Of a DNA stretch of 64,000 bases, positions 38,145 through 55,275 are shown piece by piece. Position numbers and translations under genes: made by a program. Positions within the stretch are counted from its first letter, which is position 1. Every line of letters starts with the position of its first letter. This DNA comes from Microbispora sp. H13382 (GTDB lineage: Bacteria > Actinomycetota > Actinomycetes > Streptosporangiales > Streptosporangiaceae): positions 62,001 to 126,000 of the forward strand of contig NZ_JABBXA010000023.1 of NCBI RefSeq assembly GCF_014161445.1. Reading direction: 5' to 3'. Below the pieces are notes generated by a model. The model was not told the origin of the DNA, made no database searches, and saw only the letters and a program-made list of their open reading frames with translations.

Positions 38145-38171
38145 GCCACGTGATCGGGAAGTGAGACCAGG

Positions 38172-39920: not shown

Positions 39921-39955
39921 CACGCCCCGATTTCTTCGGCACTGAGGAGAACCCC

Positions 39956-41113
39956 ATGTCCGTGACCGCCACGACCGCGATTCCGGCGACATCCCCTGAT
40001 TCCGACGCCGGGCCGGCGCTGAGCATCCGCCAGCTCAAGAAGGTCTTCCACCGCCCCGGCGGGCAGGACGTGCCCGCCGTCGACGACACCACCATGGATG
40101 TGGCCAAGGGAGAGCTCCTCGTTCTCCTCGGCGCCAGCGGCTGCGGAAAGAGCACCTTCCTGAGGTGTATCGCCGGCCTGGAGACACCGGACAGCGGCGT
40201 CATCGAAAGCCACGGCAGGATCTGGTACTCGTCCCAGGACAGGATGCTGGTTCCCCCGGAGCGGCGCGACCTCAGCATGATCTTCCAGTCGTACGCCCTC
40301 TGGCCGCACATGACCATCCGCGACAACGTGGCCTATCCACTCACCGTCGGCAAGAAGCGCCCCTCCCGGACGGAGATCCGGGAACGCGTCGACGATGTCC
40401 TGCGGATGATGGGGATCGAGAACCTCGCGGAGCAGTATCCCGCCCAGATCAGTGGCGGCCAGCAGCAGCGGGTCGCCCTGGCCCGGGCGCTTGTCCGAGG
40501 CTCCGAGATCGTGCTGTTCGACGAGCCGCTGTCGAACGTCGACGCCCGGGTGCGTGACCAGCTCCGTACGGAGATCCGTGCCATGCAGCAGCGTCTGGGC
40601 TTCACCGCGATCTACGTGACGCACGACCAGGAGGAAGCCCTGGCGATCGCGGACCGGATCGCTGTGATCGACCATGGCGTGGTGGCCCACCTGGGTACGC
40701 CTCGGGAGGTGTACCTGGCCCCGGCCAATCTCCGGGTCGCCCGGTTCGTGGGCAAGCTGAACGAGGTCGACGGCGTCGTCTCCTCGGTCGAAGGCGGCCG
40801 CGTCACGGTGCGGACGGACATCGGAGAGGTCGTCGCGGGCTCCGCGCAGGAGGGACTGGCCGTAGGCGATCCTGCGGTCGCTGTCTGGAGACCCGACCGC
40901 GTGCGCCTCGGCGGCGGCACGTCGGGTCCGAACTCCTGGGACGGCGTCGTGACGAGCTCGCACTTCTTCGGTTCCTTCACGGACACCAAGGTGGCTGTCG
41001 CCGGCGTGACCGTCCTTACCTGGGACCTCGGCGACTGTCCCCAGCCGATTCAGGGGAGCGTGCGGTTCAGCGTCGCGCCCGACGACGTGCGGGCGCTCAA
41101 GCCGATGCCGTGA
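39956..41113 (+). CDS. ABC transporter ATP-binding protein
   Basis: A 385-residue ATPase. Walker A is LLGASGCGKSTFLRCI (about 57-72), the signature is ISGGQQQRVALARALVRGSE (about 163-182), Walker B is IVLFDEPLSNVD (about 183-194) and the H-loop is YVTHDQEEAL. A TOBE domain occupies the C-terminal 120 residues, as in Fe/spermidine/sugar importers. ATG 39956 has GAGGAG 6 bases upstream; an in-frame GTG at 39917 overlapping the permease stop would add 13 residues. Confidence 0.93.
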   Translation: MSVTATTAIPATSPDSDAGPALSIRQLKKVFHRPGGQDVPAVDDTTMDVAKGELLVLLGASGCGKSTFLRCIAGLETPDSGVIESHGRIWYSSQDRMLVPPERRDLSMIFQSYALWPHMTIRDNVAYPLTVGKKRPSRTEIRERVDDVLRMMGIENLAEQYPAQISGGQQQRVALARALVRGSEIVLFDEPLSNVDARVRDQLRTEIRAMQQRLGFTAIYVTHDQEEALAIADRIAVIDHGVVAHLGTPREVYLAPANLRVARFVGKLNEVDGVVSSVEGGRVTVRTDIGEVVAGSAQEGLAVGDPAVAVWRPDRVRLGGGTSGPNSWDGVVTSSHFFGSFTDTKVAVAGVTVLTWDLGDCPQPIQGSVRFSVAPDDVRALKPMP

Positions 41114-41146
41114 GTCGCCGCATCGCGGCGTCCCTCAGTTCGATCA

Positions 41147-41171
41147 GGAGGGCCGGGTCACCCGGCCCTCC
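41147..41171 (+). terminator. Terminator of the ABC importer operon
   Basis: GGAGGGCCGGG (41147-41157) pairs perfectly with CCCGGCCCTCC (41161-41171) around TCA, followed by TTCG, 33 bp after the ATPase stop. Confidence 0.65.
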
Positions 41172-41242
41172 TTCGAGTGTCCGCGGTTCGCCGCGAGGCG
41201 GAGCGGGAGGTGGGCGAGCTGAACTCGGCGCCAGACCGCGAA

Positions 41243-41276
41243 AGACGCTCGGCCGGGATACCCCGGCCGAGCGTCT
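41243..41276. terminator. 15-bp hairpin between convergent genes
   Basis: AGACGCTCGGCCGGG (41243-41257) pairs perfectly with its complement at 41262-41276 around ATAC. On the minus strand the stem is followed by TTTCG. It probably ends the leftward tauD-type transcript, 78 bp after its stop. Confidence 0.6.
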
Positions 41277-41354
41277 CGCTGTGCTTCTCGACGCCAGTGA
41301 TCGATCACAGTGTGGCGACGGCCGCTCGAATGCGCCGACGGCGGGCGGCGGTGG

Positions 41355-42173
41355 TCAGCCGATCACGAGCCGGTGCATGACGCGCAGGTGGCCGGTGGAG
41401 TCGTTGATGGCGTAGTGCCAGACCTGACGATTGTCCCAGAAGGCGATGGAGCCCTTCCGCCAGCGGAAGCGGCAGCCGAATTCGGGACGCAGGGCGTGCT
41501 GGAAGAGGAAGTTGAGCAGCGGTGTGCTCTCCTCCTCGGTCCATCCGTCGAACCGCACCGTGTAGCCGGGCGACACATACAGCGCCTTGCGCCCCGTTTT
41601 CGGGTGGGTCGTCACGACCGGGTGGACGGCGACCTCGGGCCGGGCGGCGATCTCCTCCGGCGTGCGGTTCTTCTGGTTGCGCGCGTGCACGTGGACGCCC
41701 TTGAGGTTCTCCAGGGTCTGCTTCAGCCCCTCGGAGAGGTATTCATAGGCGGCCTGCATGTTGATGTACGCGGTGTCGGCGCCGTATTCGGGCACCTGCA
41801 AGCCGTACAGCATGGTCCCGTAGGTCGGCTCGTCCCGGTACGTCTGGTCCGCATGCCAGACGCCGCCGACGACGTCCGGCTGGGCTTCGGGCCGGCGGAT
41901 GAGCTCGTTGATGAGCGGGTGTCCGGCGACGGTGGGAAGGGCCTTGCTGACGCTGATCTCCCCGAAGTGGCCGCCGAACTCGAGGTACTGCTCAGGGGTG
42001 AGGTCCTGGTCCCGGAAGAAGATGACGCCGTGCTGGTTGAGCGCGTCCTTGATCGCCTTGATCGTCGCCTGATCCAGCGGCTGCGACAGATCCACTCCGG
42101 ACAGTTCGGCGCCGAGCATCCCCGTCACGGGAACGACGGACAGCCCCTGGATCGGCTGCGTGGTAATGGTCAT
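41355..42173 (-). CDS. TauD/TfdA-family 2-oxoglutarate/Fe(II) dioxygenase
   Basis: A 272-residue non-haem iron oxygenase of the TauD/TfdA group, whose members open sulfonates, aryloxy-alkanoate ethers and similar C-X bonds by hydroxylating the adjacent carbon. The metal ligands are His and Asp in GVWHADQTYRDEP (about residues 103-115) and the distal His in NRQVWHYAIND (about 248-258); the 2-oxoglutarate Arg is in LRVMHRLVIG at the end. The start is preceded by AGAGGAAAGACC. Promoter and operator copy A lie directly upstream. Ether cleavage of an aryloxy compound would fit the gentisate genes around it, but this is inference. Confidence 0.9.
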   Translation of the reverse strand: MTITTQPIQGLSVVPVTGMLGAELSGVDLSQPLDQATIKAIKDALNQHGVIFFRDQDLTPEQYLEFGGHFGEISVSKALPTVAGHPLINELIRRPEAQPDVVGGVWHADQTYRDEPTYGTMLYGLQVPEYGADTAYINMQAAYEYLSEGLKQTLENLKGVHVHARNQKNRTPEEIAARPEVAVHPVVTTHPKTGRKALYVSPGYTVRFDGWTEEESTPLLNFLFQHALRPEFGCRFRWRKGSIAFWDNRQVWHYAINDSTGHLRVMHRLVIG

Positions 42174-42195
42174 TGGTCTTTCCTCTGCACATCAG

Positions 42196-42217
42196 GTCAT
42201 CCGTAAAACCATATGAC
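42196..42217. promoter_or_regulatory. Island operator, copy A
   Basis: GTCATCC-N8-ATATGAC, one of three copies of the inverted repeat GTCATAC-N8-GTATGAC in the island. As in the other copies the spacer ends in ACC and is preceded by G. It lies 23 bp before the TauD-type gene, straddling the expected transcription start (about 42214). Confidence 0.7.
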
Positions 42218-42220
42218 TAG

Positions 42221-42249
42221 AGGATAGCGCTGAGCTGGAATGGAAACAA
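42221..42249 (-). promoter_or_regulatory. Promoter of the TauD-type gene
   Basis: On the minus strand TTGTTT (42249-42244) and TATCCT (42226-42221) are separated by 17 bases. Transcription would start within operator A, giving a leader of about 40 bases. Confidence 0.6.
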
Positions 42250-42631
42250 GGGGCGTAGATCGGCGCATGGCAAGCCGTGATCGTCGATGTGACGACCTGG
42301 TGGAGCTCGTGGGCGGGATGCCGCCTATCCGCGGGACATCACAGGTGGAGGGCGATCCGGCACGAGCCGGACCGGATCGCCGCCGCACGACACCGCGGAG
42401 GGGAAGATGGCCCAGGTGGTGTGGGGCGGGCAGTCGGGCAGGCCTGGCGCGCCACCCGCCCGGAGCCGCCCCGTGGCCGTCGCGTCACCGTGGTCGTCGC
42501 GTCACCCGTGGCCGTGGCCGACGGAGCGGGGGCGACCCCTGACCGCGGCCGTGAGCGCGCCCTGGCGTGCTCACACACCTCCTGGGCGTCCCAGGAGGTG
42601 CGGGAGGTGAGGGACCGGGAGAGAAGGGGTG
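42250..42631. other. Intergenic region; tandem 17-bp repeat and a hairpin
   Basis: No gene seen. A 17-bp tandem duplication with one mismatch (42471-42487 and 42488-42504, CCGTGGCCGTCGCGTCA in the first copy) lies in the middle. CACCTCCTGGG (42576-42586) pairs perfectly with CCCAGGAGGTG (42590-42600) and can terminate the leftward menA transcript, though it lacks a U-run. Confidence 0.5.
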
Positions 42632-43516
42632 TCAGGCGGCCACAGCCAGGCCGGCGAACATGCCGAGCGCCCACAGCAGTTCGGCGACGCTCGTCTGTGC
42701 CAGCACCGGCACCAGCCGCCCGCCGGTGGCGCCGCGCAGGACGGTCGACACGGCCGGGACCGCGGCGGCCAGGAAGACGAGGCCGAGTAGCGCCCACGGA
42801 GACGTTGTCGCGGCCACCACCGCCAGACACAGCACGGCGGCGGCAAGCACCGCCGCGTACAGGAGCCGGGACTTACGGTCTCCGAGCAGGGCCGGGACGG
42901 TCAGTTTGCCGGACAGCGGATCGCTGTCGATGTCTCGCAGGTTGTTCGTCAGCATCACCGCGGCGGTGAGGATCCCGACGCCGGTGCCGGCGGCGAGTGT
43001 CGGGATCCAGATGCCCGAGAGCGACTCGACCTGGATGTAGGTGATCCCGGTGACGGCCACCGGGCCGAAGAACAGGAAGACCATGACCTCGCCGAGCCCG
43101 TGGTAGGCGTACGGTCTGGGTCCCCCGGTGTACGTCCACGCCGCGAGGAGGCACAGGGCGCCCAGTAGCAGCAGGCGTAGGTCTGTCGTCACCGCTATGA
43201 CGACGCCCGCCACCGCCGCGATGCCCAGCGAGATCAGCGCGGCGGTGCGGACGTGTGCGGGTGCGGCCGCCTTGGAGGCGACGAGCCGCGCCGGACCGAT
43301 CCGGTTGGTGTCGGTGCCCTTGATGCCGTCGAAGTAGTCATTGGCGTAGTTCGCTCCCGCCTGCACGCCCGCGACGGTGATGAGGGCGAGCAGTGCCTTC
43401 GGCCAGCTGGCCGAGCCGGCGAACGCCGCGATCGCGGTTCCGCCCAGAACCGAGGCCATGGCGACGGGGAGTGTCCGGGGGCGGGCGCCCTGGATCCACT
43501 CGCGCGGTGAGGTCAT
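42632..43516 (-). CDS. menA: MenA-like 1,4-dihydroxy-2-naphthoate prenyltransferase (UbiA family)
   Basis: A 294-residue membrane prenyltransferase with about eight transmembrane helices. Both Asp-rich prenyl-diphosphate motifs are intact: NYANDYFDGIKGTDTNR (about residues 57-73) and NNLRDIDSDPLSGKLTVPAL (about 190-209), the second in the form seen in MenA. It would attach a polyprenyl chain to dihydroxynaphthoate in menaquinone synthesis. It follows the FAA hydrolase by 34 bp, apparently in the same transcript, which is an odd place for a quinone gene. It could be a second copy, or the genome's only one. ATG 43516 begins MTSPREWIQGARPRTLP, a typical N-terminus. Confidence 0.85.
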   Translation of the reverse strand: MTSPREWIQGARPRTLPVAMASVLGGTAIAAFAGSASWPKALLALITVAGVQAGANYANDYFDGIKGTDTNRIGPARLVASKAAAPAHVRTAALISLGIAAVAGVVIAVTTDLRLLLLGALCLLAAWTYTGGPRPYAYHGLGEVMVFLFFGPVAVTGITYIQVESLSGIWIPTLAAGTGVGILTAAVMLTNNLRDIDSDPLSGKLTVPALLGDRKSRLLYAAVLAAAVLCLAVVAATTSPWALLGLVFLAAAVPAVSTVLRGATGGRLVPVLAQTSVAELLWALGMFAGLAVAA

Positions 43517-43550
43517 GGTCTCCGTCCGGGTCGTCAGGCGTCCGGTCCGG

Positions 43551-44408
43551 TCACACCTTCGCCTGGGGACGGTCGGCGTACGGCACCGCGCCATTGCTGC
43601 TGACAGTGGCGGTAAGTCTACCAACCTGCTCGATTTCGACGACGATCCTGTCGCCGTCACTGAGCGGCCCGACCCCCTCGGGCGTCCCGGTGGCGATGAC
43701 GTCGCCCGGGAACAGCGTCATCACGGAGCTCGCGTAGGCGATCAGCTGGGGGACACCGAAGATCATCGCCGAGGTGCTGGCATCCTGCCGGAGATCATCG
43801 CCCACCCAGCACCTGAGCCGCAGGTCGTCGGGGTCGGCGATCTCGTCCTTGGTGACGATGTACGGCCCGATCGGGGTGAACGTGTCGTACGACTTGCGCG
43901 TCGAGCGGTCCTCGGTCGACCGGGTGGTGATGTCGAGCAGGCAGGTGTAGCCGAACACGTAGTCGAGCGCCTCGTCCGCGGAGACGTGCCGCGCCTCGCG
44001 GCCGATGACCACCGCGAGCTCGCCCTCCTGGTCCGTCCGCACGTCGGTGTAGGGCAGCTCCACCGTGCCGCCGTCACCGATCACCGACGAACTGGCTTTG
44101 AGGAACAGGCCCCACTCGTTGATCGTCGTCGGGTTCCCCATCTCCTCGACATGCGCCCGGTAGTTCGCGGGGGCGCCGAGAATCTTGTCCGGGTGCGGCA
44201 GCGGGGCCCTCCAGCGCGGGTTCGCCACGCGCGGAGCCGAGCGCAGGGCTTCCTCGGTCAGCCTGGCCTCGAGCTGCCCGCACGCGATGAGCGCGTGCAG
44301 CAGTCCCTGCCGGCCGGCGGAGTGGACGCCGGCGATCTCTGTCACGTCGAGGACCTCGTCCTTGTGGATGACACCGAGCCGGTCGTCGTCGAACACGCCC
44401 AAACGCAT
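43551..44408 (-). CDS. Fumarylacetoacetate hydrolase family (putative fumarylpyruvate hydrolase)
   Basis: A 285-residue FAH-fold hydrolase that should split fumarylpyruvate into fumarate and pyruvate, the last step of the gentisate pathway. Motifs are DKILGAPANYRAHVEEMGNP (about 80-99), a metal-binding EGELAVVIGREARHVS, YVFGYTCLLDITTR, FTPIGPYIVTKDEI and the closing FPGDVIATGTPEGVG. Start 44408 (MRLGVFDDDRLGV) has AGGAG 6 bases upstream. Related family members act on acylpyruvates or oxaloacetate, so the exact substrate rests on context. Operator copy B lies 48 bp upstream. Confidence 0.88.
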   Translation of the reverse strand: MRLGVFDDDRLGVIHKDEVLDVTEIAGVHSAGRQGLLHALIACGQLEARLTEEALRSAPRVANPRWRAPLPHPDKILGAPANYRAHVEEMGNPTTINEWGLFLKASSSVIGDGGTVELPYTDVRTDQEGELAVVIGREARHVSADEALDYVFGYTCLLDITTRSTEDRSTRKSYDTFTPIGPYIVTKDEIADPDDLRLRCWVGDDLRQDASTSAMIFGVPQLIAYASSVMTLFPGDVIATGTPEGVGPLSDGDRIVVEIEQVGRLTATVSSNGAVPYADRPQAKV

Positions 44409-44455
44409 GCGCTCTCCTGGGGTTGCTGAAGGGGCTGAAGGAATCATGGGGGGAA

Positions 44456-44477
44456 GTGATACGGTATCATGTATGAC
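44456..44477. promoter_or_regulatory. Island operator, copy B
   Basis: Read on the minus strand it is GTCATAC-N8-GTATCAC, one mismatch from the shared inverted repeat, again with a spacer ending in ACC. It lies between the divergent FAA hydrolase (start 44408) and beta-hydroxyacid dehydrogenase (start 44548) and could control both. Unlike copies A and C, no strong -35/-10 pair is seen beside it. Confidence 0.62.
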
Positions 44478-44547
44478 CAGACGACTTGGGGGCGGGTGCC
44501 CGTACGTCGTCCCGTCGGGCCCGTGAGACGCGCAGATGAGGTGCACC

Positions 44548-45444
44548 GTGCGATCCAATGAGGTACTCGGCTTCGTCGGTCTGGGGGCCATGGGGCGGCC
44601 GATGGCGGAGCACCTGCGGGACGCGGGCTTTCCCCTCGTCGTCCACGACGTGTCCGCGGCGGCGTCTTCTCTTTCCGGTGTCACCGTTGCCGCCACTCCG
44701 GCGGAGGTGGCAGATCGGGCTGATGTGGTCTTCCTCTGCCTCCCGGACGCGCACGCTGTCCGGGAGGTCGTTCTGGGACCTCAGGGACTGCGCCTGGGAG
44801 AGCGGATGTCCGTGCTCGTGCACACCGGGACGTCCGGGGCGCCGGTCGTGCAGGAGATGGCGTCGGCGCTGGCAACCGTTTCGGTCGTCGACGCGCCCGT
44901 CACCGGCGGCGTGCCGCGGGCGCGCGCCGGGTCGCTGACCGCCATCGTAGCGGGGCCGGTGGTGGCGGTCGAGCGTGTCCGGCCCTACCTGGACGCCTTC
45001 GCCACGAAGGTGGCGCACGTCAGTGCCAACCCCGGCGACGCGCAGCGGATGAAGCTGGTCAACAACTTCCTCTCCGCGGGCAATCTCGCGCTGGCCTGCG
45101 AGGCCATGGTCCTCGGCCAGAAGCTGGGCCTGGACCCGAAGGCCATCGTGGACGTCGTCAACAGCGGTTCGGGCCAGAACAGCGCGACCCTGACGAAGAT
45201 CCCGGAAAACGTCATTCCGCGGAAATTCTCCCGCGGCGGCGCCATCGGCATGCTGCTCAAGGACCTGCGCGAGGCCGAGGACGAGGCCCGGGCCAACGGG
45301 GTCGAGACCCCGCTCGGCGACGCGGTGCGTGCGGTGTTCGCGCGTGCGATCGCCGAAGGCTCGCCGCGAGACGACTCGACGTCGGTCATCTGCCACATGG
45401 AGCGGGCTGCCGGGCTGCACAGCCACATGTCGGCCGAGGACTGA
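44548..45444 (+). CDS. Beta-hydroxyacid dehydrogenase (3-hydroxyisobutyrate dehydrogenase-like)
   Basis: A 298-residue NAD(P)-dependent dehydrogenase. The cofactor loop is GFVGLGAMGRPMAEHLRDAG (about 8-27), followed by DVVFLCLPD, the substrate loop VDAPVTGGVPRARAGSLTAI (about 115-134) and the catalytic Lys in QRMKLVNNFLS. It reduces or oxidises short hydroxyacids or semialdehydes such as tartronate or methylmalonate semialdehyde; here the substrate is unknown. The GTG at 44548 is used; ATG 44536 would add four residues. It lies 6 bp before the GntR gene, so regulator and enzyme are co-transcribed. Confidence 0.88.
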   Translation: MRSNEVLGFVGLGAMGRPMAEHLRDAGFPLVVHDVSAAASSLSGVTVAATPAEVADRADVVFLCLPDAHAVREVVLGPQGLRLGERMSVLVHTGTSGAPVVQEMASALATVSVVDAPVTGGVPRARAGSLTAIVAGPVVAVERVRPYLDAFATKVAHVSANPGDAQRMKLVNNFLSAGNLALACEAMVLGQKLGLDPKAIVDVVNSGSGQNSATLTKIPENVIPRKFSRGGAIGMLLKDLREAEDEARANGVETPLGDAVRAVFARAIAEGSPRDDSTSVICHMERAAGLHSHMSAED

Positions 45445-45450
45445 GGACCT

Positions 45451-46221
45451 ATGAACACGACACCGGACACGTCGTTGCTCCGCCCGCTGTACCAGCGGGT
45501 GTACGCCGTTCTGCTGCAGCGGATCTCGGAAGGAGAGTATCCGGTGGGCTCGGCCCTGCCCTCGGAGTCCCGCCTGTCCGAGGAGTTCGCGGTCAGCAAG
45601 GCGACCATCCGCAAGGCGGTCGACGAGATGGTCGTCCGCGGCTACGTCGTGCGTCGGCAGGGCAGCGGCACCTACGTCAGCGCCAGGGGCCTGCGGCCGG
45701 AAGGCGGCGTCTTCGTGGGATCCATGGACGACCTGATCTCCGGCACGCCGCATCTGCCCGTTCACGACGTGCGCGTCTCGCGGGGTGTGCGCTTTCCGCA
45801 GGACGTCCGCGAGGTGTTCTCGCCGGGCGTCGAGAGCGGGACCATAGTCCGCAGCAGGCGCAAGTCCGGAGACACGATCTTCGTCTACTCCGTCCACTAC
45901 CTGTCGCCCGGGATCGAGCCGCTCATCACCGAGGAGGAGCTCCGGGAGGGCGGCATGATGGCTCTGCTTCGCCGGCGCGGTGTGCCGCTCACCGCGGTCG
46001 AGCAGACCATGTCAGCCCGGCTCGCCGATGTCGAGGTGGCGGAGGAGTTCGACATCGGCGTCGGCTCGCCGGTTCTGCTGGCCCGCCGCGTGCTCTACGC
46101 GCAGGAAGGCCCGGTGGACGTGACGCGGATCTGGTACCGCGGGGACATGTTCCAGTGGCGGGCCTCGCTGCGCCTGGCGGAGGGCCAGGAGGACGGAATC
46201 TACTCGGCGTCGGCGCGCTGA
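45451..46221 (+). CDS. GntR-family regulator, HutC/UTRA type (island regulator)
   Basis: A 256-residue transcription factor. The winged HTH is at about residues 10-78 (YQRVYAVLLQRISEGEYPVG, LPSESRLSEEFAVSKATIRK, RQGSGTYV); a UTRA ligand domain fills about 100-245. It is co-transcribed with the dehydrogenase and overlaps the convergent IclR gene by 22 bp at the 3' end. It or the IclR protein should read the three operator copies. HutC-type sites often contain GT-N(1)-TA-N(1)-AC cores, and the operator's GTAT/ATAC arms are compatible, but no direct evidence picks one regulator. Confidence 0.9.
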   Translation: MNTTPDTSLLRPLYQRVYAVLLQRISEGEYPVGSALPSESRLSEEFAVSKATIRKAVDEMVVRGYVVRRQGSGTYVSARGLRPEGGVFVGSMDDLISGTPHLPVHDVRVSRGVRFPQDVREVFSPGVESGTIVRSRRKSGDTIFVYSVHYLSPGIEPLITEEELREGGMMALLRRRGVPLTAVEQTMSARLADVEVAEEFDIGVGSPVLLARRVLYAQEGPVDVTRIWYRGDMFQWRASLRLAEGQEDGIYSASAR

Positions 46222-46991
46222 GGCAGTCCGCTTCGGGGGCTGCCCCGAAGGTCCCGCTCGACGGCGGCGACGGTCGACGCGATCTCCGCGTTGAGCCTCG
46301 ACAGCTGGTCCCTGCGGAACCGGGACGTGGGCATCGCCAGCGACATGGCCGCTATGACCTCCTCGTTCGGCTGCCTGACCGCGCGCGCCACCGCGGTCAC
46401 GCCGCGCTCGGTGCGCTTGTGCTGATCGTTGATCGCGAACCCACGCCGCCGCACCATGTCCAGGATCTTGAGCAGGCTGTCGAGCTGTGACGGGTCGAAC
46501 TCCGGCTCCGCGGTCAGGCGCTCGACCAGTTCCTCCGGCGGCAGCGCCGCCAGGAGGACCCTTCCCCCGGAGATGTCCCATGCCGGGAACAGCTGACCCT
46601 CGCGGTCGCCGACCTTCAGCAGGTGGGTCGACTCCACGCACGCGATGAACCGGACGTGGAGACCGGACAGGACCTGAAGGTTCACCGTCTCACCGGTCGT
46701 ATCGCGCAGCGTCTGCAGGTGGGGCATCGCGAAGGCGCGCAGCTCCGCGACCTGGGTGGAGTTGAGGCCGATCGGCCGCAGGGCCGGCCCGGCGTCGTAC
46801 CGGCGGTCCTCGTTCTGCTGGGCGAAACCGCGGTACACGAGCATGGCCAGCAGCCGATGTGCCGTCGAGCGGGCGATCTTCAAGCGGCTCGCGAGCTCCG
46901 AGCTTCGCATCGGGCCCTCCTGCTGAAGGAGGAGGGCGAGCCTGAGCGCGTGGTCGACGGAAGAGACCGCGTAGTCGGGGCGATTCTTCAT
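46200..46991 (-). CDS. IclR-family regulator
   Basis: A 263-residue transcription factor of a family that commonly controls aromatic-acid catabolism, often as an activator. The HTH is at about residues 12-65 (HALRLALLLQQEGPMRSSEL, ASRLKIARSTAHRLLAMLVY, RGFAQQNEDRRYDAG). The effector domain follows with VNLQVLSGLHVRFIACVEST and RGFAINDQHKRTERGVTAVA. It is divergent from the gentisate dioxygenase gene, with 157 bp between the start codons; ATCGTATATCGGAT near 46997-47010 is a palindrome-like stretch where it may bind. Confidence 0.9.
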   Translation of the reverse strand: MKNRPDYAVSSVDHALRLALLLQQEGPMRSSELASRLKIARSTAHRLLAMLVYRGFAQQNEDRRYDAGPALRPIGLNSTQVAELRAFAMPHLQTLRDTTGETVNLQVLSGLHVRFIACVESTHLLKVGDREGQLFPAWDISGGRVLLAALPPEELVERLTAEPEFDPSQLDSLLKILDMVRRRGFAINDQHKRTERGVTAVARAVRQPNEEVIAAMSLAMPTSRFRRDQLSRLNAEIASTVAAVERDLRGSPRSGLPQRADAE

Positions 46992-47148
46992 GGCGGCATC
47001 GTATATCGGATCAGCGGAATCGCGATTAGCCTCTCAGGTGATGGTCGCCGGTCCCCAGAGTCCGCTCCCTCGGCATAGCCGGGCGGACAGCCGGCACCAC
47101 GAGCGCGGGAACCCGCGCTACTACATCGACGCCGGAAGTGAGGACGCG

Positions 47149-48183
47149 ATGGCGACATCGACTGAGAAGCGCGGGGCTTTGGCCGAGTCCTACTACGAGC
47201 GCGTTCGCGAGGCGCACCTCGTGGCACTGTGGCGGGTCCCGGAGACGGACGCGCCGGAGCCCGCGCCGGCGGAGTCGCCGCATGTCTGGCGCTACGACGA
47301 GCTCATCGGTTTGCTCAAGGAGGCCTGCGCCCTCGACCTCGGAGGCGAGTCCGACCGGCGGGCGCTCAACGCCGTGAACCCCGGCCGCCTTTGGGGGACG
47401 ACGCAGAGCATGGTGGCCGGCTACCAGATGGTGCTCCCCGGTGAGAGCGCCCCTGCGCACCGGCACACCCCTGCCGCGATCCGCCTCATGTTGTCGGGGC
47501 GGGGGTACACGGTGGTGGAAGGCGAGGCCGTCTTCATGGAGCCGGGCGACCTTGTGCTCACCCCCGGGTGGACCTGGCATGACCACCGCAACGACGGAGA
47601 CGAGACGATGGTCTGGCTCGACGGCCTCGACGTCCCGTTCGTCCGCGGTATGAACGCCCAGTTCTACGAGGACTTCGAGGGTAAGCAGCTGCAGCCCAAG
47701 CTCGTTCCGGACAACGCCAGCGTGTCGCGCTTCGGCTCCGGCGTGGTCCCCTCGGACGAGCCCGCCGTCACCAGGCACTCCCCGCTGACCAAGTATCCGT
47801 ACGGCTCCACACTGGCGAGCCTGCGGCGGCTGCGCGAGGTGAAGGGTGACCCGGAGCACGGCGTGTCCATCGACTTCGTCCATCCGCTCACCGGCGGCCC
47901 CGTGCTGCCCACGATGGCCTGCGCCATGCAGTTGCTCCCTCCGGGCCGCGCGACCCAGGCGCGCCGGCACACGTCCAGCACCGTCTTCTGCGTCACCCAG
48001 GGCGAGGGTTACACCGTCGTCAACGGTGAGCGCATGGACTGGAAGCACAAGGACTTCTTCGTGGTGCCGTCCTGGACCTGGTACGAGCACCACGCCACCG
48101 GTACCGAGGACGTGACGCTGTTCTCGATGAGCGACCGACCGCTCCTGGAGCCGTTCGGGCTCTACCGGGAGCAGGTGCGCTGA
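47149..48183 (+). CDS. Gentisate 1,2-dioxygenase-type cupin ring-cleavage enzyme
   Basis: A 344-residue bicupin iron dioxygenase that opens gentisate to maleylpyruvate. The N-terminal cupin has HRHTPAAIRLMLSGRGYTVV (about residues 104-123) with the His ligands, then LVLTPGWTWHDHRNDGDETM; the C-terminal cupin has ATQARRHTSSTVFCVTQGEG (about 267-286) and VVPSWTWYEHHAT. Size and layout match bacterial gentisate dioxygenases; 1-hydroxy-2-naphthoate dioxygenase is a close relative and cannot be excluded. ATG 47149 has GTGAGGA upstream. It heads the operon 47149-53047 with the FAD hydroxylase 13 bp on. Confidence 0.88.
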   Translation: MATSTEKRGALAESYYERVREAHLVALWRVPETDAPEPAPAESPHVWRYDELIGLLKEACALDLGGESDRRALNAVNPGRLWGTTQSMVAGYQMVLPGESAPAHRHTPAAIRLMLSGRGYTVVEGEAVFMEPGDLVLTPGWTWHDHRNDGDETMVWLDGLDVPFVRGMNAQFYEDFEGKQLQPKLVPDNASVSRFGSGVVPSDEPAVTRHSPLTKYPYGSTLASLRRLREVKGDPEHGVSIDFVHPLTGGPVLPTMACAMQLLPPGRATQARRHTSSTVFCVTQGEGYTVVNGERMDWKHKDFFVVPSWTWYEHHATGTEDVTLFSMSDRPLLEPFGLYREQVR

Positions 48184-48196
48184 GGGATCGGACGAG

Positions 48197-49432
48197 TTGA
48201 GAGCAGATAGGACTAGACAGTTGAATTTGGCACAGCGAGCCCTTCCTCGGGTCGTCGTGGTCGGTGGCGGCATCGGGGGGTTCACGACGGCGCTGGCGCT
48301 GGCCCTGCGGGGGATGGAGGTGCAGGTCCTCGAACGAGCCCCCGAGTTCACGGAGATCGGCGCCGGGCTTCAGTTCGGCCCCAACGCCAACCGGGCCCTT
48401 GAGCGCCTCGGCGTACTCGACGCCGTGCTCAAGACGGCGGTGCTGCCGACGAAGTTCGCCATCATGGACGTCTACACGGGTGCCGAGCTCTACCACGCCA
48501 AGCTCGGCGAGGTTCTGGCCAGCCGCTACGGGGCGCCGTACACGGTCATGCACCGTCATGACCTGCTCACCGCGCTCATGGAGGGCGCGAGGGCGACCGG
48601 GCGCGTGGAGGCCCTGCCGGGCAAGGAGGTCGTCGACCTGGCTCAGGACAGCACCGGCGTCCGGGTCACCTGCGCGGACGGCTCGACGTACCAGGGGGAC
48701 GTGCTCGTCGGGGCGGACGGGGTGCGCTCCATCGTGCGCAGGCTCGTCCTCGACGACTCGGAGCCGCTGATGTCCGAGTACGTCATCTACCGCGGGCCCG
48801 GTCCCCGGCCGGAGGGCATCGAGGACGCCGTGATGCTGTACACCGGCGACCAGATGCACCTGATGCAGTACCCCATCCAGGGGGGTGCCATGGTCAACCG
48901 CGTCCTGTCCTTCCGCAGCACGAAGGGGAAACCCGGAAGCGACGAGTGGGGCACGCCGGAGGAGCTGTTCGACCGGTTCAGCGTGGCCTGCGACCACGTG
49001 CGGGCGGCGCTGCCGACGCTGGACCTGGAGAAGAAGTGGGTGCAGTTCGACCGGGCGCCCCTGGCGGGGTGGGCGCAGGGACGAGTCGCGCTCCTGGGCG
49101 ACGCGGCTCATGCCATGCGGCAGTACCTCGCGCAGGGTGCCGGGCAGGCGGTGGAGGACGCTCTCGCCCTCGCCGAAGCCCTCAGCGCGCGGCCGGACGA
49201 CATCCCGGCGGCACTGGCGCGCTACGAGGAGGTCCGCTTCCCGCGCGCCAGCGCCGTCCAGATGAACACGCGCTTCTTCGGGGAGTTCACCCACTTCGGG
49301 GGCATCGAGGCACTGGTCCGGAACTATCTTCTGAAGATCCTGTCGAGCGACGACTACGAGCTCGTGGAGTGGCTCTACGGTGACGGCAGCGTCCCGCCCC
49401 CCGTCCCGCCGAGAAGCCTGAACCTGTACTGA
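48197..49432 (+). CDS. FAD-dependent aromatic hydroxylase (3-hydroxybenzoate 6-hydroxylase/salicylate hydroxylase-like)
   Basis: A group A flavoprotein monooxygenase of about 411 residues. The FAD loop is VVVVGGGIGGFTTALALALR (about 16-35), the NAD(P)H/FAD motif is VLVGADGVRSIVRR, and the ribityl motif is GRVALLGDAAHAMRQYLAQG (about 295-314). Its place next to gentisate dioxygenase suggests that it makes gentisate, for example by 6-hydroxylating 3-hydroxybenzoate. There is no ATG: TTG at 48197, 48221 or 48227 are the possible starts, and 48221 has AGGA about 9 bases upstream. Confidence 0.88.
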   Translation: MRADRTRQLNLAQRALPRVVVVGGGIGGFTTALALALRGMEVQVLERAPEFTEIGAGLQFGPNANRALERLGVLDAVLKTAVLPTKFAIMDVYTGAELYHAKLGEVLASRYGAPYTVMHRHDLLTALMEGARATGRVEALPGKEVVDLAQDSTGVRVTCADGSTYQGDVLVGADGVRSIVRRLVLDDSEPLMSEYVIYRGPGPRPEGIEDAVMLYTGDQMHLMQYPIQGGAMVNRVLSFRSTKGKPGSDEWGTPEELFDRFSVACDHVRAALPTLDLEKKWVQFDRAPLAGWAQGRVALLGDAAHAMRQYLAQGAGQAVEDALALAEALSARPDDIPAALARYEEVRFPRASAVQMNTRFFGEFTHFGGIEALVRNYLLKILSSDDYELVEWLYGDGSVPPPVPPRSLNLY

Positions 49433-49505
49433 TGCCCGTCCTTCCGGGATGGCGGCGCGTGACGCCGCGCCGGAAGGAACTGGAGAAGGACAACGAGGAC
49501 AACAA

Positions 49506-50489
49506 GTGGTTGAACGAATCACATTGGCGTGCGGGCCCTACGACCGCACCGCGGCACTCGCCGACGGCCGGGTCAGGGTGCAAGGCGTCGACCTGAACTA
49601 TCTGCCCCTGAGCGCCGAGGAGATCTTCTTCCGGATGGCCCGGCACGGGGAGTTCGACGTGGCGGAGATGTCGCTGTCCTCGTACACCCTGAGCGTTCTG
49701 CGCGGGCGGCCGTTCGTGGCGATCCCCGTCTTCCCCTCCAGAACCTTCCGGCACCACGGCGTCTACGTCCGCGGTGACAGCGACTACACCGACCCGTCGC
49801 AACTGGCGGGCAAGACGGTGGGCATCCCGGAGTACCAGATGACCGCGGCGGTGTGGATTCGCGGCATCCTCCAGGAGCACCATGGGCTGCCCGTCGACTC
49901 GGTGAGGTACCGAACCGGCGGACTGCTCGAACCCGGCCGGATCGAGAAGCTCACGATCGACGTCCCGGGCGTCGACATCGCGCCGATTCCCACCGGCACC
50001 ACGTTGTCGGACATGTTGGAGCGCGGCCAGATCGACGCGCTGTACACCGCCCGGACGCCCCGGGGCTTCGGCGGCCCGGACAGCAACATCCGCCGGCTGT
50101 GGAGCGAGCCGATGGACGTCGAGTCCGACTACTTCCGTCAGACCGGCATCTTCCCGATCATGCACACCGTCGTCATCCGCTCCGACGTGTACGAGCGCAA
50201 CCGCTGGCTGGCCCGCTCCCTGATGAACGCCTTCTCCGAGGCGAAGGCTCTGGCCGCCCAGTCCCTCGCCGAGGTCGTGGCGCTGTCCAATCTCCTACCC
50301 TGGGGCTACCGGCAGGCGGAGCACGTCCGCGAGCTCATGGGAACGGATCACTGGCCGTACGGCATCGAGGAGAACCGGGCCTGCCTCACCACCTTCCTCG
50401 GCTACATGCGGGCCCAGGGCCTCACGCAGCGGCTTGTCAGCCCCGAGGAGATCTTCGCCCCCGAGACCCACGACGAATTCGTCGTCTGA
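49506..50489 (+). CDS. 4,5-dihydroxyphthalate decarboxylase-like protein
   Basis: A 327-residue cytoplasmic protein with a periplasmic-binding-protein fold but no signal peptide. ERITLACGPYDRTAALADGR near the start, EMSLSSYTLSVLRGRPFVAI (about 57-76), YRTGGLLEPGRIEKL and DALYTARTPRGF are the pattern of Pht5-type 4,5-dihydroxyphthalate decarboxylase. It probably removes a carboxyl group from a hydroxylated aromatic diacid before ring cleavage; a binding-only role is possible. The GTG at 49506 follows GAGGA by 7 bases. Confidence 0.8.
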   Translation: MVERITLACGPYDRTAALADGRVRVQGVDLNYLPLSAEEIFFRMARHGEFDVAEMSLSSYTLSVLRGRPFVAIPVFPSRTFRHHGVYVRGDSDYTDPSQLAGKTVGIPEYQMTAAVWIRGILQEHHGLPVDSVRYRTGGLLEPGRIEKLTIDVPGVDIAPIPTGTTLSDMLERGQIDALYTARTPRGFGGPDSNIRRLWSEPMDVESDYFRQTGIFPIMHTVVIRSDVYERNRWLARSLMNAFSEAKALAAQSLAEVVALSNLLPWGYRQAEHVRELMGTDHWPYGIEENRACLTTFLGYMRAQGLTQRLVSPEEIFAPETHDEFVV

Positions 50490-50507
50490 TTACGGAGTGA
50501 TGCACTC

Positions 50508-51080
50508 GTGACCTCCCGGCTTGCCGAGCCTGATCCGCGGTCCTTCACGGCCGACGAACGTGCCGTTTACGACGTTGTCACCAGCGGCCCGCACAACCCC
50601 ACCGGGCCGACGGCGATCTGGTCCCGCAGCCCCAGGCTCGCTCAGGCGGCACTCGACTTCGGTAACTACGTCCGCTTCGGTTCGGTTCTCGAGCCGCGGC
50701 TCCGGGAACTGGCGATCCTCGTCACCGCCGTGGAGTGGCGCTGCGAGAACGAATGGCTCGCCCACGAGCCGCTGGCCCGCAAGGCCGGCCTGTCCGAGGA
50801 GGCCGTCGCGGGCGTGCGTGACGGCGCTTTCGCGTCTCAGGACGCGGCGGAGCGGGCGGTCCACGACGTCGCCGTGTGCCTGCACCGGGACCGGGACATC
50901 CCGGACGACGTTTACGAGCGCGCGTCGCGCGTCCTCGGTGACCGGGGAATGGTCGAGCTCATCTCCACCGTCGGCTTCTACACGATGATCGCCATGCTCC
51001 TCAACGGAACCAGGGCCCCCATCACCAGACGCGACGACAAGGACACCCGGCCCGACCCCCAGGAAGTGAGCAAGCCATGA
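50508..51080 (+). CDS. Carboxymuconolactone decarboxylase-family protein
   Basis: A 190-residue helical protein of the CMD/AhpD superfamily. The core RELAILVTAVEWRCENEWLA with a following His (about residues 64-86) carries the Glu-Trp-x2-His arrangement of decarboxylase-like members and lacks the redox CxxC of AhpD, so a decarboxylase, isomerase or lactonase-like role is likelier than peroxide reduction. GTG start; 18 bp after the decarboxylase-like gene, and its stop overlaps the next start (ATGA). Confidence 0.85.
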   Translation: MTSRLAEPDPRSFTADERAVYDVVTSGPHNPTGPTAIWSRSPRLAQAALDFGNYVRFGSVLEPRLRELAILVTAVEWRCENEWLAHEPLARKAGLSEEAVAGVRDGAFASQDAAERAVHDVAVCLHRDRDIPDDVYERASRVLGDRGMVELISTVGFYTMIAMLLNGTRAPITRRDDKDTRPDPQEVSKP

Positions 51081-53047
51081 GCCCGTTCGAGACCCTCTCC
51101 AGCCCGATCTCGATCGCCGGGATGACGGTTCGCAACCGTCTCATGCTGACGACGCACAACCCGAAGATGAGCGAGCGGCGCTACCTCAAGTACCTTGAGA
51201 CGCGCGTGCGCGGCGGCGTCGGACTGGTCGGCATCCCCGTTCTGTCCGAGGCCATCTCGACGCCGTACTTCGTGACGACCGGATGGCAGGACCACGTCGC
51301 GATCGATGACATCGACGCCGGTCCCGACCCCGAGACCCCGGAGGGCGAGGCTTTCTACGACCGCTTGCTGCTGCCGAAGATCGAGGCGCGAGCCAAGATC
51401 GTCCACGACTCCGGCGCCGTCGTGTTCGGGCAGGTGGCGAACCGCGGCTCGATCCGCCTGCCGGAGACGTTCCAGGCCATGGTCTCCCCGAGCGGCAAAC
51501 AGGATCCGCACGTCCGTACGCAGCCGCACACCCTGACGACGGACGAGGTGAAGCAGGTGGTGCGGCTCTTCGCCCGGGCGGCCTCGCGGGTCCAGCGCGG
51601 CGGCTTCGACGGTGTCGAGGTGCACGCCACCCATGGCTACCTCGTCGAGCAGTTCCTCTCCCCGGTCACGAATCAGCGGACCGACGAGTACGGCGGCACC
51701 CCGGAGAACCGGCGCCGTTTCCTCGACGAGATCATCGCCGCTATCCGCGAGACCTGTGGTCCGGACTTCCCGATCGGCATGCGGATCAGCGGCCGGCAGG
51801 CGAACCCTCAGGGACTGTCCACCGGCGACGTCGTGGAGATCGTCCGCGCGGTCGAGCAGCACCTGGCCTATGTCAATGTCACGGCGGGTACGATCGGCGC
51901 GCTCGACGACGGGGTCGTGCTGCCCTACGTCGCCTCCGCGTACCTCGAGCCCGGGTTCAACGGCGAGTCGGCGGCACGGGTCAAGTCCGCGGTCTCGGTG
52001 CCCGTCATCCTGACCGGCCGGATGAACGACCCGGCCCTGATGGAGCGGGTGCTCAACGAGGGTCTGGCGGACATGGTCGGGACGACGCGGGCGCTGATCG
52101 CCGACCCGGACTTCCTCCGCAAGGCCGAGCGCGGCGACGCCGGGCGTATCCGCAAGTGCATCGGCGTCAACGAGTGCCACTATCCCGACCGGGTGTCGGC
52201 CTGCCCGGTGAACCCCTGGGCCGGGCGAGAGGACGAGCTGGCCGTCCCCGCGCCGCCGGCGGGCAAGCACGTGGTGATCGTCGGAGCCGGGCCCGCGGGC
52301 CTGATGTGCGCGCGTACGGCGGCCGAGCGGGGGCACCGCGTCACACTCCTGGAGAAGCAGGACCAGCTCGGCGGTAAGCTGCGCCGGCTGTGCCTGGACC
52401 CGGGCCGTGCGGAGATGCGTTCCCTCATCGACGGGCTGGAGAAGGAGGTCCGCCAGGCGGGCGTGGACGTCCGCACCGGGGTCGAGGCGACACCGGAGCT
52501 GATCGCCGCCCTGGCGCCGGACGCCGTGGTCGCCGCGACGGGCGCCATGCCGGCCATCCCGGATCTCCCGGGAGCCGGGGACATCAGGACGTTCAGCGCC
52601 CTGGACATCCTCGACATGGACCTGTCCGAACTGGGGGAGTCCGTGCTTGTCGTCGGTGGTCTGAACGACCACGTCGCACCGCTGGCGGCGGCGGACTTCC
52701 TGGCCGCGGCAGGCAAGCAGGTGACCCTGATCTCGGAGTGCTTCGTCCCGGGGCAGGGTGCGGAGCCGTCGATCCTCCATCTCCTGACGCAGCGCTGCCT
52801 GGAGCAGGGCGTGGACATCAGGGCGAACACGAGGCTGGACACGCTGGGCCCGAAGCCGCAGGTCTACAACACCTTCTCCAGGCGAACCGACCTCGTCCCG
52901 GCCGACTCGGTGGTCTTCGCCGCCGCCCAGGAGGTGACGGACTTCCCCGACATCGAAGGGGAGTTCTACCGGATCGGTGACGCCCTCGCGCCTCGCAGGA
53001 TCGTGCACGCCACGTTGGACGGGGCCCGGATCGCACTGCGTCTTTGA
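51077..53047 (+). CDS. Old Yellow Enzyme/2,4-dienoyl-CoA reductase-like FMN-FAD oxidoreductase
   Basis: A 656-residue protein. Residues 1 to about 350 form the FMN barrel, with FDGVEVHATHGYLVEQFLSP (about 176-195) followed by NQRTDEYGGTPENR. Residues about 390-656 form an FAD/NAD(P) unit starting VVIVGAGPAGLMCARTAAER. Between them, where relatives bind a 4Fe-4S cluster through three close Cys plus one later Cys, the sequence is CIGVNECHYPDRVSACPVNP: Cys 361, Val 364, Cys 367, Cys 376, so the second Cys is a Val. Homologues reduce dienoyl-CoA or enones or N-demethylate amines. It is co-translated with the CMD gene. Confidence 0.87.
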   Translation: MSPFETLSSPISIAGMTVRNRLMLTTHNPKMSERRYLKYLETRVRGGVGLVGIPVLSEAISTPYFVTTGWQDHVAIDDIDAGPDPETPEGEAFYDRLLLPKIEARAKIVHDSGAVVFGQVANRGSIRLPETFQAMVSPSGKQDPHVRTQPHTLTTDEVKQVVRLFARAASRVQRGGFDGVEVHATHGYLVEQFLSPVTNQRTDEYGGTPENRRRFLDEIIAAIRETCGPDFPIGMRISGRQANPQGLSTGDVVEIVRAVEQHLAYVNVTAGTIGALDDGVVLPYVASAYLEPGFNGESAARVKSAVSVPVILTGRMNDPALMERVLNEGLADMVGTTRALIADPDFLRKAERGDAGRIRKCIGVNECHYPDRVSACPVNPWAGREDELAVPAPPAGKHVVIVGAGPAGLMCARTAAERGHRVTLLEKQDQLGGKLRRLCLDPGRAEMRSLIDGLEKEVRQAGVDVRTGVEATPELIAALAPDAVVAATGAMPAIPDLPGAGDIRTFSALDILDMDLSELGESVLVVGGLNDHVAPLAAADFLAAAGKQVTLISECFVPGQGAEPSILHLLTQRCLEQGVDIRANTRLDTLGPKPQVYNTFSRRTDLVPADSVVFAAAQEVTDFPDIEGEFYRIGDALAPRRIVHATLDGARIALRL

Positions 53048-53193
53048 CCCGGCGGCCGGCGGCCGGCGACGAGGACGCGGGCGGGCCCACGCCTGACGCC
53101 GGCCCGGCCGATGCCGCCGTGTCGTCCGCGTGTCGTCCGCGTGGCGGTCGGTGGGACGCGCGGTCGGCGGACGTGTGGTTGGAGGGGGGCGGG

Positions 53194-53856
53194 ATGACCG
53201 ATCCGGTGCGGACCTGGCGAGCGCGACGGGCGTGGGGCAGGTTCGTCGGCGCGGTGTACGCCGGCGGTGCCGAGCGGGAGTGGATCTTTCGAGTCGCCGG
53301 CCGGGTGCTGTGGGGGACCGACACGCGGCTGCTGCGGCGCGGCATCGGCGAGCTCGCGCGGTTGCCGTCGGACGTGCTGATCCTGGACGCGCCGTGCGGA
53401 AGCGGTGTCGCGCTCGCCGGGCTGCGCGCCGCCGGTGGGCCCGGATACGTCGGCGTCGACATCTCACCGGCCATGGTCAGCCGCGCCCGGCGGCGCGCCG
53501 GGCCGGGATCCGCGGCGCGGTTCGCTCGCGCCGATGTGCGGGCGCTGCCCTTCGCCGATGGCGCGTTCGGGGGGTGCCTGTCCTACAACGGGCTGCACTG
53601 CCTCCCCGATCCCGGCGTCGCGGTGGCGGAACTGGCTCGCTGTCTCGCCCCCGGCGGCCGACTGGTGGGGTGCTGCATCGTCAGGAAGGCCGGGCCGCGC
53701 TTCGATCGGATGATCGCCCTGCTGCGCCGGTTCGGGGTGTTCGGAGCCGTGGGAACGGCGTCCGACGTGCGGGGATGGTTTCAGGAGGCCGGCCTGCGAC
53801 TCGACCGCTTCGACCGTTCGGGCGCGGTCGTCCACTTCGTTGCCGTGCGCCGGTGA
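53194..53856 (+). CDS. Class I SAM-dependent methyltransferase
   Basis: A 220-residue methyltransferase. Motif I is LILDAPCGSGVALAGL (about residues 53-68) and the acidic residue of motif II is in YVGVDISPAMVSRAR; later come ADVRALPFADGAFGGCLSYN and ELARCLAPGGRLVGCCI, as in ubiquinone/menaquinone-type C- or O-methyltransferases. The substrate is unknown. ATG 53194 follows GGAGGGGGGC; the frame is open back to the preceding stop. Promoter C begins inside its last codons. Confidence 0.82.
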   Translation: MTDPVRTWRARRAWGRFVGAVYAGGAEREWIFRVAGRVLWGTDTRLLRRGIGELARLPSDVLILDAPCGSGVALAGLRAAGGPGYVGVDISPAMVSRARRRAGPGSAARFARADVRALPFADGAFGGCLSYNGLHCLPDPGVAVAELARCLAPGGRLVGCCIVRKAGPRFDRMIALLRRFGVFGAVGTASDVRGWFQEAGLRLDRFDRSGAVVHFVAVRR

Positions 53857-53868
53857 ACCTGTTACTGT
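53840..53868 (+). promoter_or_regulatory. Promoter of the alcohol/aldehyde dehydrogenase genes
   Basis: TTGCCG (53840-53845) and TACTGT (53863-53868) with a 17-base spacer, partly inside the methyltransferase gene end. As at the TauD-type gene, the operator begins a few bases after the -10 element. Confidence 0.6.
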
Positions 53869-53874
53869 CTACTG

Positions 53875-53896
53875 GTCATACGCTTAACCGTATGAC
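53875..53896. promoter_or_regulatory. Island operator, copy C (best copy)
   Basis: GTCATAC-N8-GTATGAC, a perfect inverted repeat (with one more pair, G53882/C53889, extending each arm to 8 bp). It straddles the predicted transcription start of the dehydrogenase transcript. Flanking GACTGGAGGA (53893-53902) resembles GACTAGAGGA beside copy A. Confidence 0.75.
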
Positions 53897-53903
53897 TGGA
53901 GGA

Positions 53904-54222
53904 AAGCTGTGCGGTCCACGGCGGGTAGCAGGAGTCGATGCCTTTCCCGCCGGGTGCCCGCGGTCGGACCGATGAACGTGTCCGTGTCCTCCCACGCGGC
54001 GGCGTGGTGGACTTCCCCAAGATCGACGGCGAGGTCTGTCGCATCGACGCCTGCCTCGCCACTCGCCCCCTTCACCCCCCTGGACCCCTTCACGCCGCAC
54101 CCCTCGCCGGGCTCGTCCACGCGACATCCGGCGAGGCTCGTACGGGGCTCGAAGGGGGCCGTGCAGGGGGATCTCGCGGGGGTTCGTGAACATGACGCAG
54201 ACGGCGTGACTGGAGGAGACGC
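53904..54222. other. Long leader between operator C and the alcohol dehydrogenase
   Basis: About 320 bp without a convincing gene. A GTG at 53909 with GGAGG ahead opens a frame of 115 codons that runs into the next gene, but its composition is not protein-like. GACTGGAGGA occurs at 53893-53902 and again at 54208-54217, the second being the dehydrogenase ribosome site; the stretch between could be an insertion or duplication that separated the operator from its gene. Confidence 0.45.
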
Positions 54223-55275
54223 ATGCGCGGAGTGGTGTTCCCCGGAAGCAGTGTGATCGGTTTCATCGACCTGCCCGACCCCACACCCGGACCGGGCGAG
54301 GTCGTCGTTGAGATCAAGGCGTCGGGAATGTGCGGAAGCGATCTCAACCTCTACCGGGCGGCGCCGGGCAGCAAGCGCCACCCCAAGCTCCCGCCGCCGA
54401 CCGAGCCGATCATCGCGGGGCATGAGCCGTGCGGGGTGGTGGCGGCCGTGGGGTCCGGGGTGACGGCGAACGAGGCCAGGGTCGGCGACCGGGTCATGGT
54501 CCACCACTACTGGGGCTGCAGCGTCTGCGAGCACTGCCGGGCGGGCTGGGCGCAGATGTGCTCCCGGGAGGTCCCGGCGGTCTACGGCATCAGCGCGCAC
54601 GGTGCCCACGCCCCGTACATGACCGTCCCCGCCCGTACCCTCGTGCCGCTGCCCGAAGAGCTGAGCTTCGAGGCGGGCTCGGCGATCTCCTGCGGCATGG
54701 GCACCTCCTACGGCGCGCTGATGCGGGTGCGGCCGTCCGGGAGGGACACGGTGGCGATCTACGGCCAGGGCCCGGTCGGTCTCGCCGCGACGCAGCTCGC
54801 CGCCGCGATGGGCGCCCGCGTCATCGCCCTCGACATCAGTGAGGAGCGGCTTCGGCGTGCCGGGGAACTCGGCGCGGACGTGATCGTCAATCCGGCGGTG
54901 GAGAGCTCCGTGGAGGCGATCCTGCAGCACACGAAGGGGCGCGGGGCGGACTACGCTCTGGAGACCTCCGGCGCCGTGTCGGCACGGGCCGAGGCCATCG
55001 CGGCGGTCCGCCCGTGGGGCGCGGTCGTCCTGGTCGCCGGGGTCACGGCGCTGCAGGTCGAGAACGTCAGCACGATCACCTCCCGGCAGCTCACGATCAT
55101 GGGCTCGTGGACCTTCTCGAACGTCGGGCAGGCCGAGTGCGCGCAGTTCGTCGTCGATCACGGCATTCCGGTCGACGAACTGTTCAGCCACCGGTGGCGG
55201 CTCGACCAGGCCGAGGAGGCATACCAGCTGTTCGCGCGGCAGACCGACGGAAAGGGGGTCTTCCTGTTCGGCTGA
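54223..55275 (+). CDS. Zinc-dependent alcohol dehydrogenase
   Basis: A 350-residue medium-chain dehydrogenase. Catalytic zinc ligands are Cys in GMCGSDLNLY (about 37-46) and His-Glu in IIAGHEPCGVV (about 63-73); the structural zinc site is CSVCEHCRAGWAQMC (about 95-109). The nucleotide loop is VAIYGQGPVGLAATQLAAAM near 177-196. It should oxidise a primary or secondary alcohol to aldehyde or ketone, and the aldehyde dehydrogenase 127 bp on would take it to the acid. GGAGGAGACGC precedes the ATG. Confidence 0.92.
   Translation: MRGVVFPGSSVIGFIDLPDPTPGPGEVVVEIKASGMCGSDLNLYRAAPGSKRHPKLPPPTEPIIAGHEPCGVVAAVGSGVTANEARVGDRVMVHHYWGCSVCEHCRAGWAQMCSREVPAVYGISAHGAHAPYMTVPARTLVPLPEELSFEAGSAISCGMGTSYGALMRVRPSGRDTVAIYGQGPVGLAATQLAAAMGARVIALDISEERLRRAGELGADVIVNPAVESSVEAILQHTKGRGADYALETSGAVSARAEAIAAVRPWGAVVLVAGVTALQVENVSTITSRQLTIMGSWTFSNVGQAECAQFVVDHGIPVDELFSHRWRLDQAEEAYQLFARQTDGKGVFLFG

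Follow-up and report, generated by a model that had tools for sequence, protein, structure and literature searches.

The closest described systems are the regulators of the HutC subfamily, with DasR, NagR/YvoA, PhnF and TreR among them, which combine an HTH with a UTRA domain. According to PMC4494728, single FadR/HutC sites sit centrally in divergons together with the regulator gene, and the HutC consensus has published exceptions, SdhR among them. Here we present a locus of Microbispora sp. H13382 found in the window, that is, the whole stretch of 64,000 nucleotides analysed. It includes a GntR-family regulator with the same combination of HTH and UTRA (Pfam: GntR 5.8e-20, UTRA 1.2e-20), whose solved sequence relatives include YvoA and DasR. 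As in HutC systems, the regulator gene belongs to a divergon that has a site, B, near its middle. Together with two further sites, A and C, this site makes up a shared inverted-repeat motif, and judged from sequence we consider it probable that all three are operators of the island's own autoregulated GntR/UTRA repressor of HutC type (Table 1).

Table 1. Genes, candidate operators and island, with positions in the window
Feature	Position	Strand	Remark
Island in native menA slot	32605..57454		24.85 kb
TauD/TfdA-type oxygenase (tauD)	41355..42173	-	behind site A
Candidate operator site A	42196..42217	+	2 mismatches; centre 33.5 bases upstream of tauD ATG
Extended site A	42193..42224	+	11-base half-sites and tail
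menA, 1,4-dihydroxy-2-naphthoate polyprenyltransferase	42632..43516	-	34 bases after FAA
FAA-hydrolase-family protein (FAA)	43551..44408	-	flanks site B
Candidate operator site B	44456..44477	+	1 mismatch; near centre of FAA-menA / HIBADH-gntR divergon
Extended site B	44453..44484	+	11-base half-sites and tail
3-hydroxyisobutyrate-dehydrogenase-like (HIBADH) oxidoreductase	44536..45444	+	first gene of gntR operon
GntR-family regulator with UTRA (HutC type)	45451..46221	+	second gene after B; proposed operator binder
IclR-family regulator	46200..46991	-	divergent from gentisate operon
Gentisate-type operon	47140..53047	+	ring dioxygenase, 3-hydroxybenzoate-6-hydroxylase-like, NMT1/DHPD-like, CMD, DCR-like
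Methyltransferase	53194..53856		frame between gentisate operon and site C
Candidate operator site C	53875..53896	+	0 mismatches (perfect)
Extended site C	53872..53903	+	11-base half-sites and tail
Zinc-binding alcohol dehydrogenase (ADH)	54223..55275	+	behind site C
Aldehyde dehydrogenase (ALDH)	55331..56884	+	behind site C

The shared inverted repeat and its occurrence in the genome

The earlier note placed GTCATAC-N8-GTATGAC at A, B and C with two, one and no mismatches, and this is exact. All three sites are intergenic, C lying 18 bases from the methyltransferase stop and 326 bases before the ATG of ADH (337.5 bases when counted from its centre). The flank GACT(A/G)GAGGA, reported for two sites, indeed follows A (GACTAGAGGA) and C (GACTGGAGGA), and B has a looser version of it (GACCAGACGA). 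The statement that all spacers end in ACC is false for B, the spacer of which is GGTATCAT, and the same orientation ascribed to the sites holds on the plus strand but not relative to the genes, since tauD is on the minus strand and A is thereby reversed. When aligned, the three sites have left GT.AT.CG and right TATGAC..GA.GA in common, and the six half-sites, read outward as CGGATGACCTG, CATATGACTAG, CGTATCACTTC, TGTATGACCAG, CGTATGACCAG and CGTATGACTGG, make up an inverted repeat whose arms of about 11 bases are separated by 6 bases.

A scan of the window with up to three mismatches finds nothing beyond A, B and C. Among 100 shuffled windows, 5 also had at least three matches of this kind, so that the bare count is weak evidence and the weight is carried by the copies with no and one mismatch. 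We then scanned the whole genome (8,709,848 bases in 70 contigs) with IUPAC patterns at up to three mismatches. At one mismatch or fewer, only B and C are found, 9.4 kb apart, with 0.20 places expected for independent bases. At exactly two mismatches there are three places, A and two others, where 5.2 are expected on the same assumption; site A alone thus has no genome-wide significance, and its credibility needs its position and flank. Relaxed to three mismatches, the 22-base pattern is uninformative genome-wide, with 79 places against 61 for the reversed control and 88 expected for independent bases. A 29-base pattern made from A, B and C, at up to three mismatches, matches in the genome the three sites, C on its reverse strand and two places with three mismatches, while its reversed control gives no match in the whole genome. 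In addition, a self-built matrix scores the three sites at 31-34 bits, a circular measure for these sites themselves, with the next best place in the window at 6.8. On the whole, pattern scans of the entire genome bear out the claim that the three promoter regions have one operator motif in common and that it is limited to the island.

The two other places with two mismatches were also inspected. Both are at gene edges. One (L003, 1501-1522), outside the island, runs for 17 bases before the ATG of an aminotransferase-like gene on its contig and for 5 bases into that gene; the other (L005) covers the last 15 bases of a gene for a substrate-binding protein and precedes the following gene by about 55 bases. 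Neither has the flank, and with 5.2 places expected we put both down to chance, although they may be operators.

In a post-hoc simulation of the island's intergenic DNA, 86 of 10,000 sets are equally good, that is, they hold a perfect 7-base dyad, a partner with at most one mismatch and a further partner with at most two. The null set used for this simulation and for counting dyads begins at 33800, omits 32605-33799 and takes the methyltransferase boundary at 53130. Because the real intergenic DNA is richer in dyads than the simulated (25 versus a mean of 4.9), the post-hoc chance is rescaled upward to about 0.01-0.05, a rough figure that precedes the genome-wide evidence.

The island, its promoters and its menA

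DNA homology to two genus mates (L037 and L038) stops at 32602-32604 and returns at 57455, the flanks having 86-94% DNA identity in the aligned pieces. In the same slot L037 has 1.09 kb with menA; the slot of L038, 2.52 kb long, holds two more gene-like frames besides menA. The menA part gives a 67-70% DNA match in all 14 genus mates, in two of which the gene order was inspected. The island, a block of imported genes for the breakdown of aromatics, encodes a maleylpyruvate isomerase family protein, SDR, PhyH, MFS, an ABC transporter, TauD, menA, FAA and a HIBADH-like protein, followed in our list by GntR/UTRA, IclR, gentisate-dioxygenase-like, 3HB6H-like, NMT1/DHPD-like, CMD, DCR-like, methyltransferase, ADH and ALDH proteins, several of these names standing for the nearest family at scores under the NCBIfam curated cut-offs. 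The methyltransferase has no match in L037, L038 or the Arthrobacter plasmid described below.

Site B is located almost in the middle of the divergon at 44409-44535 (127 bases), its centre at 44466.5 being 5.5 bases from the divergon centre at 44472. For promoters, the earlier note described -35/-10 pairs at A and C, and these are present with the geometry given there, namely TTGTTT-17-TATCCT on the minus strand 3 bases before A and TTGCCG-17-TACTGT 6 bases before C; however, each agrees with the consensus at only 7 of 12 positions. At B the best pair (8/12, minus strand) is partly inside the site, and a scan at a threshold of 9/12 finds no promoter at the sites. A repressor operator straddling the start of transcription is a possible arrangement here, as judged from these pairs. 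The note had also joined the three promoters into one pathway regulon, which is mostly right for the GntR module but leaves the gentisate operon outside: no copy of the operator is present in the IclR/gentisate region (46992-47148), so the regulon would cover only part of the island.

Two observations concern neighbouring intergenic DNA. The IclR/gentisate divergon has one GGAATC box and its Arthrobacter counterpart two TGGAATC boxes, which are possible IclR sites; the two regions share no word of more than 7 bases. Between site C and ADH, the 326 bases at 53897-54222 have a codon-position GC that is not gene-like and would be unusually long as a leader, and are possibly debris of module insertion. 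A small gene at 53909-54256, with a GTG start and a good Shine-Dalgarno sequence, was considered and rejected, its codon-position GC not being gene-like and Pfam giving no match.

The menA protein of the island is 45-50% identical to those of the genus mates. With the native protein as query, no second menA-like gene is found in the genome at E<=1e-10, and menB is present, scoring above the cut-off. Apparently, the native quinone-synthesis gene has been displaced by an imported menA copy. It is unexpected that site B precedes FAA-menA, which holds the only menA found in the genome. Since menA closely follows FAA on the same strand, as it does in Arthrobacter (13 bases), the two are probably transcribed together from the region of site B. 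The menA gene is essential in menaquinone-dependent bacteria. A tentative suggestion, which we hold to be possible rather than probable, is that the native menA gave way to the island and that the cell's only copy of this essential respiratory-quinone gene, second in the FAA operon behind B, has come at least partly under the control of an imported repressor of catabolism. If the only menA is located behind operator B with no promoter of its own, quinone supply would answer to an acquired catabolic switch.

The regulator proposed for the three sites

The GntR/UTRA protein is proposed as the binder because of its domain make-up, its own operon behind B, the divergon geometry and the common absence of regulator and operator in one relative. 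This relative is plasmid NZ_CP126248.1 (59.6 kb) of Arthrobacter sp. zg-Y820, a marmot gut isolate, which carries most of the island at 8777-25577. Fourteen island proteins are found there at 41-76% identity: isomerase 41%, SDR 64%, PhyH 76%, transporter 62/75/67%, ADH 60%, FAA 66%, menA 68%, IclR 67%, dioxygenase 76%, hydroxylase 68%, DHPD-like 76% and DCR 75%. The plasmid has the FAA-menA order, the IclR and most of the gentisate operon like the island, but unlike it has no GntR ortholog, HIBADH, TauD, CMD, MFS or methyltransferase. Its annotated GntR is only 25% identical and has a different gene neighbourhood, and its ALDH is only a 33% paralog elsewhere on the plasmid. Among the absent genes are the one behind A and those flanking B on the side of gntR, as well as the ALDH that follows C. 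The operator itself, at up to three mismatches, is absent from two overlapping stretches that cover the record except for its start junction. As the plasmid keeps the IclR without GntR and operator, the operator appears to accompany GntR/UTRA and not IclR, by one comparison confined to a plasmid. This suggests an island made of an IclR/gentisate core common with Arthrobacter and a GntR module.

Several points stand against the GntR/UTRA protein. The published HutC consensus GTMTAKAC (GT-N4-AC) occurs in none of the three sites, the best having 2-3 mismatches of 8. The Arthrobacter relative also lacks island genes that have no operator (CMD, MFS and methyltransferase), and it keeps FAA and ADH without one. 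Further such points are the two-mismatch places at gene edges elsewhere in the genome, the lack of significance of A by itself and the weak promoter matches.

Relatives of this regulator are rare. Besides its own, orthologs are found in none of 14 genus genomes and none of 340 family genomes at E<=1e-40, and, at E<=1e-25, in none of 344 other genomes of the order and in 2 of 393 other genomes of the class (44% and 38% identical), these genome sets overlapping and the family, order and class counts covering the best 6-7 candidates per genome. Six peptide patterns searched across genome contigs likewise give nothing besides the regulator itself, and in the families of the two distant hosts, at E<=1e-50, only the hosts themselves are found (1/35 and 1/17). 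Neither distant relative has the operator at up to two mismatches in the fetched stretches, and their intergenic DNA has no similar site. In L042 (7570-10748), the 38%-identical GntR is divergent to an ALDH that has 44% identity to the one in the island, and a HIBADH match of 32% adjoins, which again ties this regulator type to such enzymes. A query of genome contigs with the DHPD-like protein gave 278 confirmed loci, 80 of which were kept; among these, no GntR above 60 bits and no operator at up to two mismatches is found, and three-mismatch matches are present in 11. An Acidovorax plasmid has ADH and the DHPD-like gene in common with the island, and Cupriavidus and Salipiger plasmids have ADH and ALDH, with no operator in the stretches fetched from them. 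Our searches found no second GntR-bearing island, nor any literature on this operator or island in titles and the starts of abstracts.

As a binder of A-C, the island's own IclR, with GntR and IclR dividing the island in some other way, seems unlikely to us. IclR regulators often control aromatic catabolism, and the TsdR motif GTGTGRY...RTCAYAC has a half-site resembling GTATGAC (both from PMC8222616), but the intergenic region between IclR and the gentisate operon holds no operator, and the Arthrobacter IclR has a nearly identical recognition helix (IARSTAHRLL in the island, IARSTTHRLL in Arthrobacter) in a plasmid lacking the operator. Sites A-C also depart from published motifs, with 5-7 mismatches to the two general IclR consensuses (groups 1 and 2), 4-8 to that of TsdR and 3-5 of 10 to that of GenR; the test is weak, for the IclR-gentisate region itself has 4-6, 7 and 3-4. 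Of GntR and IclR, between which the earlier note did not choose, GntR is favoured by the Arthrobacter plasmid, by the geometry of the divergon and by the comparison of motifs.

We regard a regulator encoded elsewhere in the genome as quite improbable. It would fit a motif that matches no published subfamily consensus exactly and an island binder that is putative, but the motif has no close copy elsewhere in the genome, by which such a regulator could act on its own gene. There is a similarly small probability that only B and C are operators, A being a chance match and tauD outside the regulon. About five two-mismatch places are indeed expected genome-wide; against this, the number expected within the island at two mismatches or fewer is 0.015, and A is close before tauD and has both TATGAC and the flank GACYRGASGA. 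Finally, RNA hairpins in leaders would be a most improbable account of the repeats, for although C could give a stem of 8 pairs with a 6-base loop, the changes in A and B break pairs, with 0 of 8 pairs altered on both sides in the three sequences, which speaks for conserved base identity and a DNA site rather than RNA pairing, and no Rfam match is present in 32000-58000.

With the GntR/UTRA repressor as the preferred binder, its dimer would read the inverted half-site CGTATGACYRG, 6 bases apart and 28 bases in total. Bound at A (tauD), B (FAA-menA and HIBADH-gntR) and C (ADH-ALDH), it would block RNA polymerase, and at B it would regulate itself. A pathway metabolite is expected to bind the UTRA domain and release the repressor, repression until then being most likely, and the gentisate operon would presumably be left to the neighbouring IclR. 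Going by gene families, our guess is that a compound oxidised by the TauD enzyme and the dehydrogenases would feed the gentisate-type core. The locus thus offers a testable local regulon, with three promoter regions, one likely repressor and one half-site, CGTATGACYRG, under a HutC-type regulator that is seldom found and the proposed sites of which are off the family consensus.

Comparison with described operators

In the HTH, the island GntR has the residue pair SK, as does L041, and the pair is SR in L042 and PDB 2ra5. Ser40 is taken as 28 and Lys50 as 38 (Arg positions of FadR), in a numbering that we assume from the FadR sequence. The SK pair in the recognition helix may go with the unusual site. 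Unlike HutC operators, the sites here have no GT-N4-AC and consist of a pair of inverted half-sites, the 7-base arms of which are 8 bases apart; none of the three fits NyGTMTAKACNy. The arms of A-C look more like the FadR-type box GTM-N-KAC than the HutC consensus. With GTM-N0-1-KAC as the FadR type, GTMNKAC is present in each arm of C and in the right arm of B, while A needs one mismatch for a fit, and so does the operator-free IclR region. The differences from this type are the two boxes per site and a regulator with UTRA in place of the FadR C-terminal domain. In PMC4494728, SdhR also has a long palindrome, departs from the HutC consensus and has a core readable as 7-8-7, but its letters differ, with 10 to 12 of 22 mismatches to the sites here. 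The same paper describes YtrA-subfamily operators, which go with an ABC-transporter operon and in which GT and AC are remote from the centre of the palindrome; their geometry looks similar. On the whole, the locus adds one more case of a familiar arrangement, and the switch it would form is of an ordinary kind.
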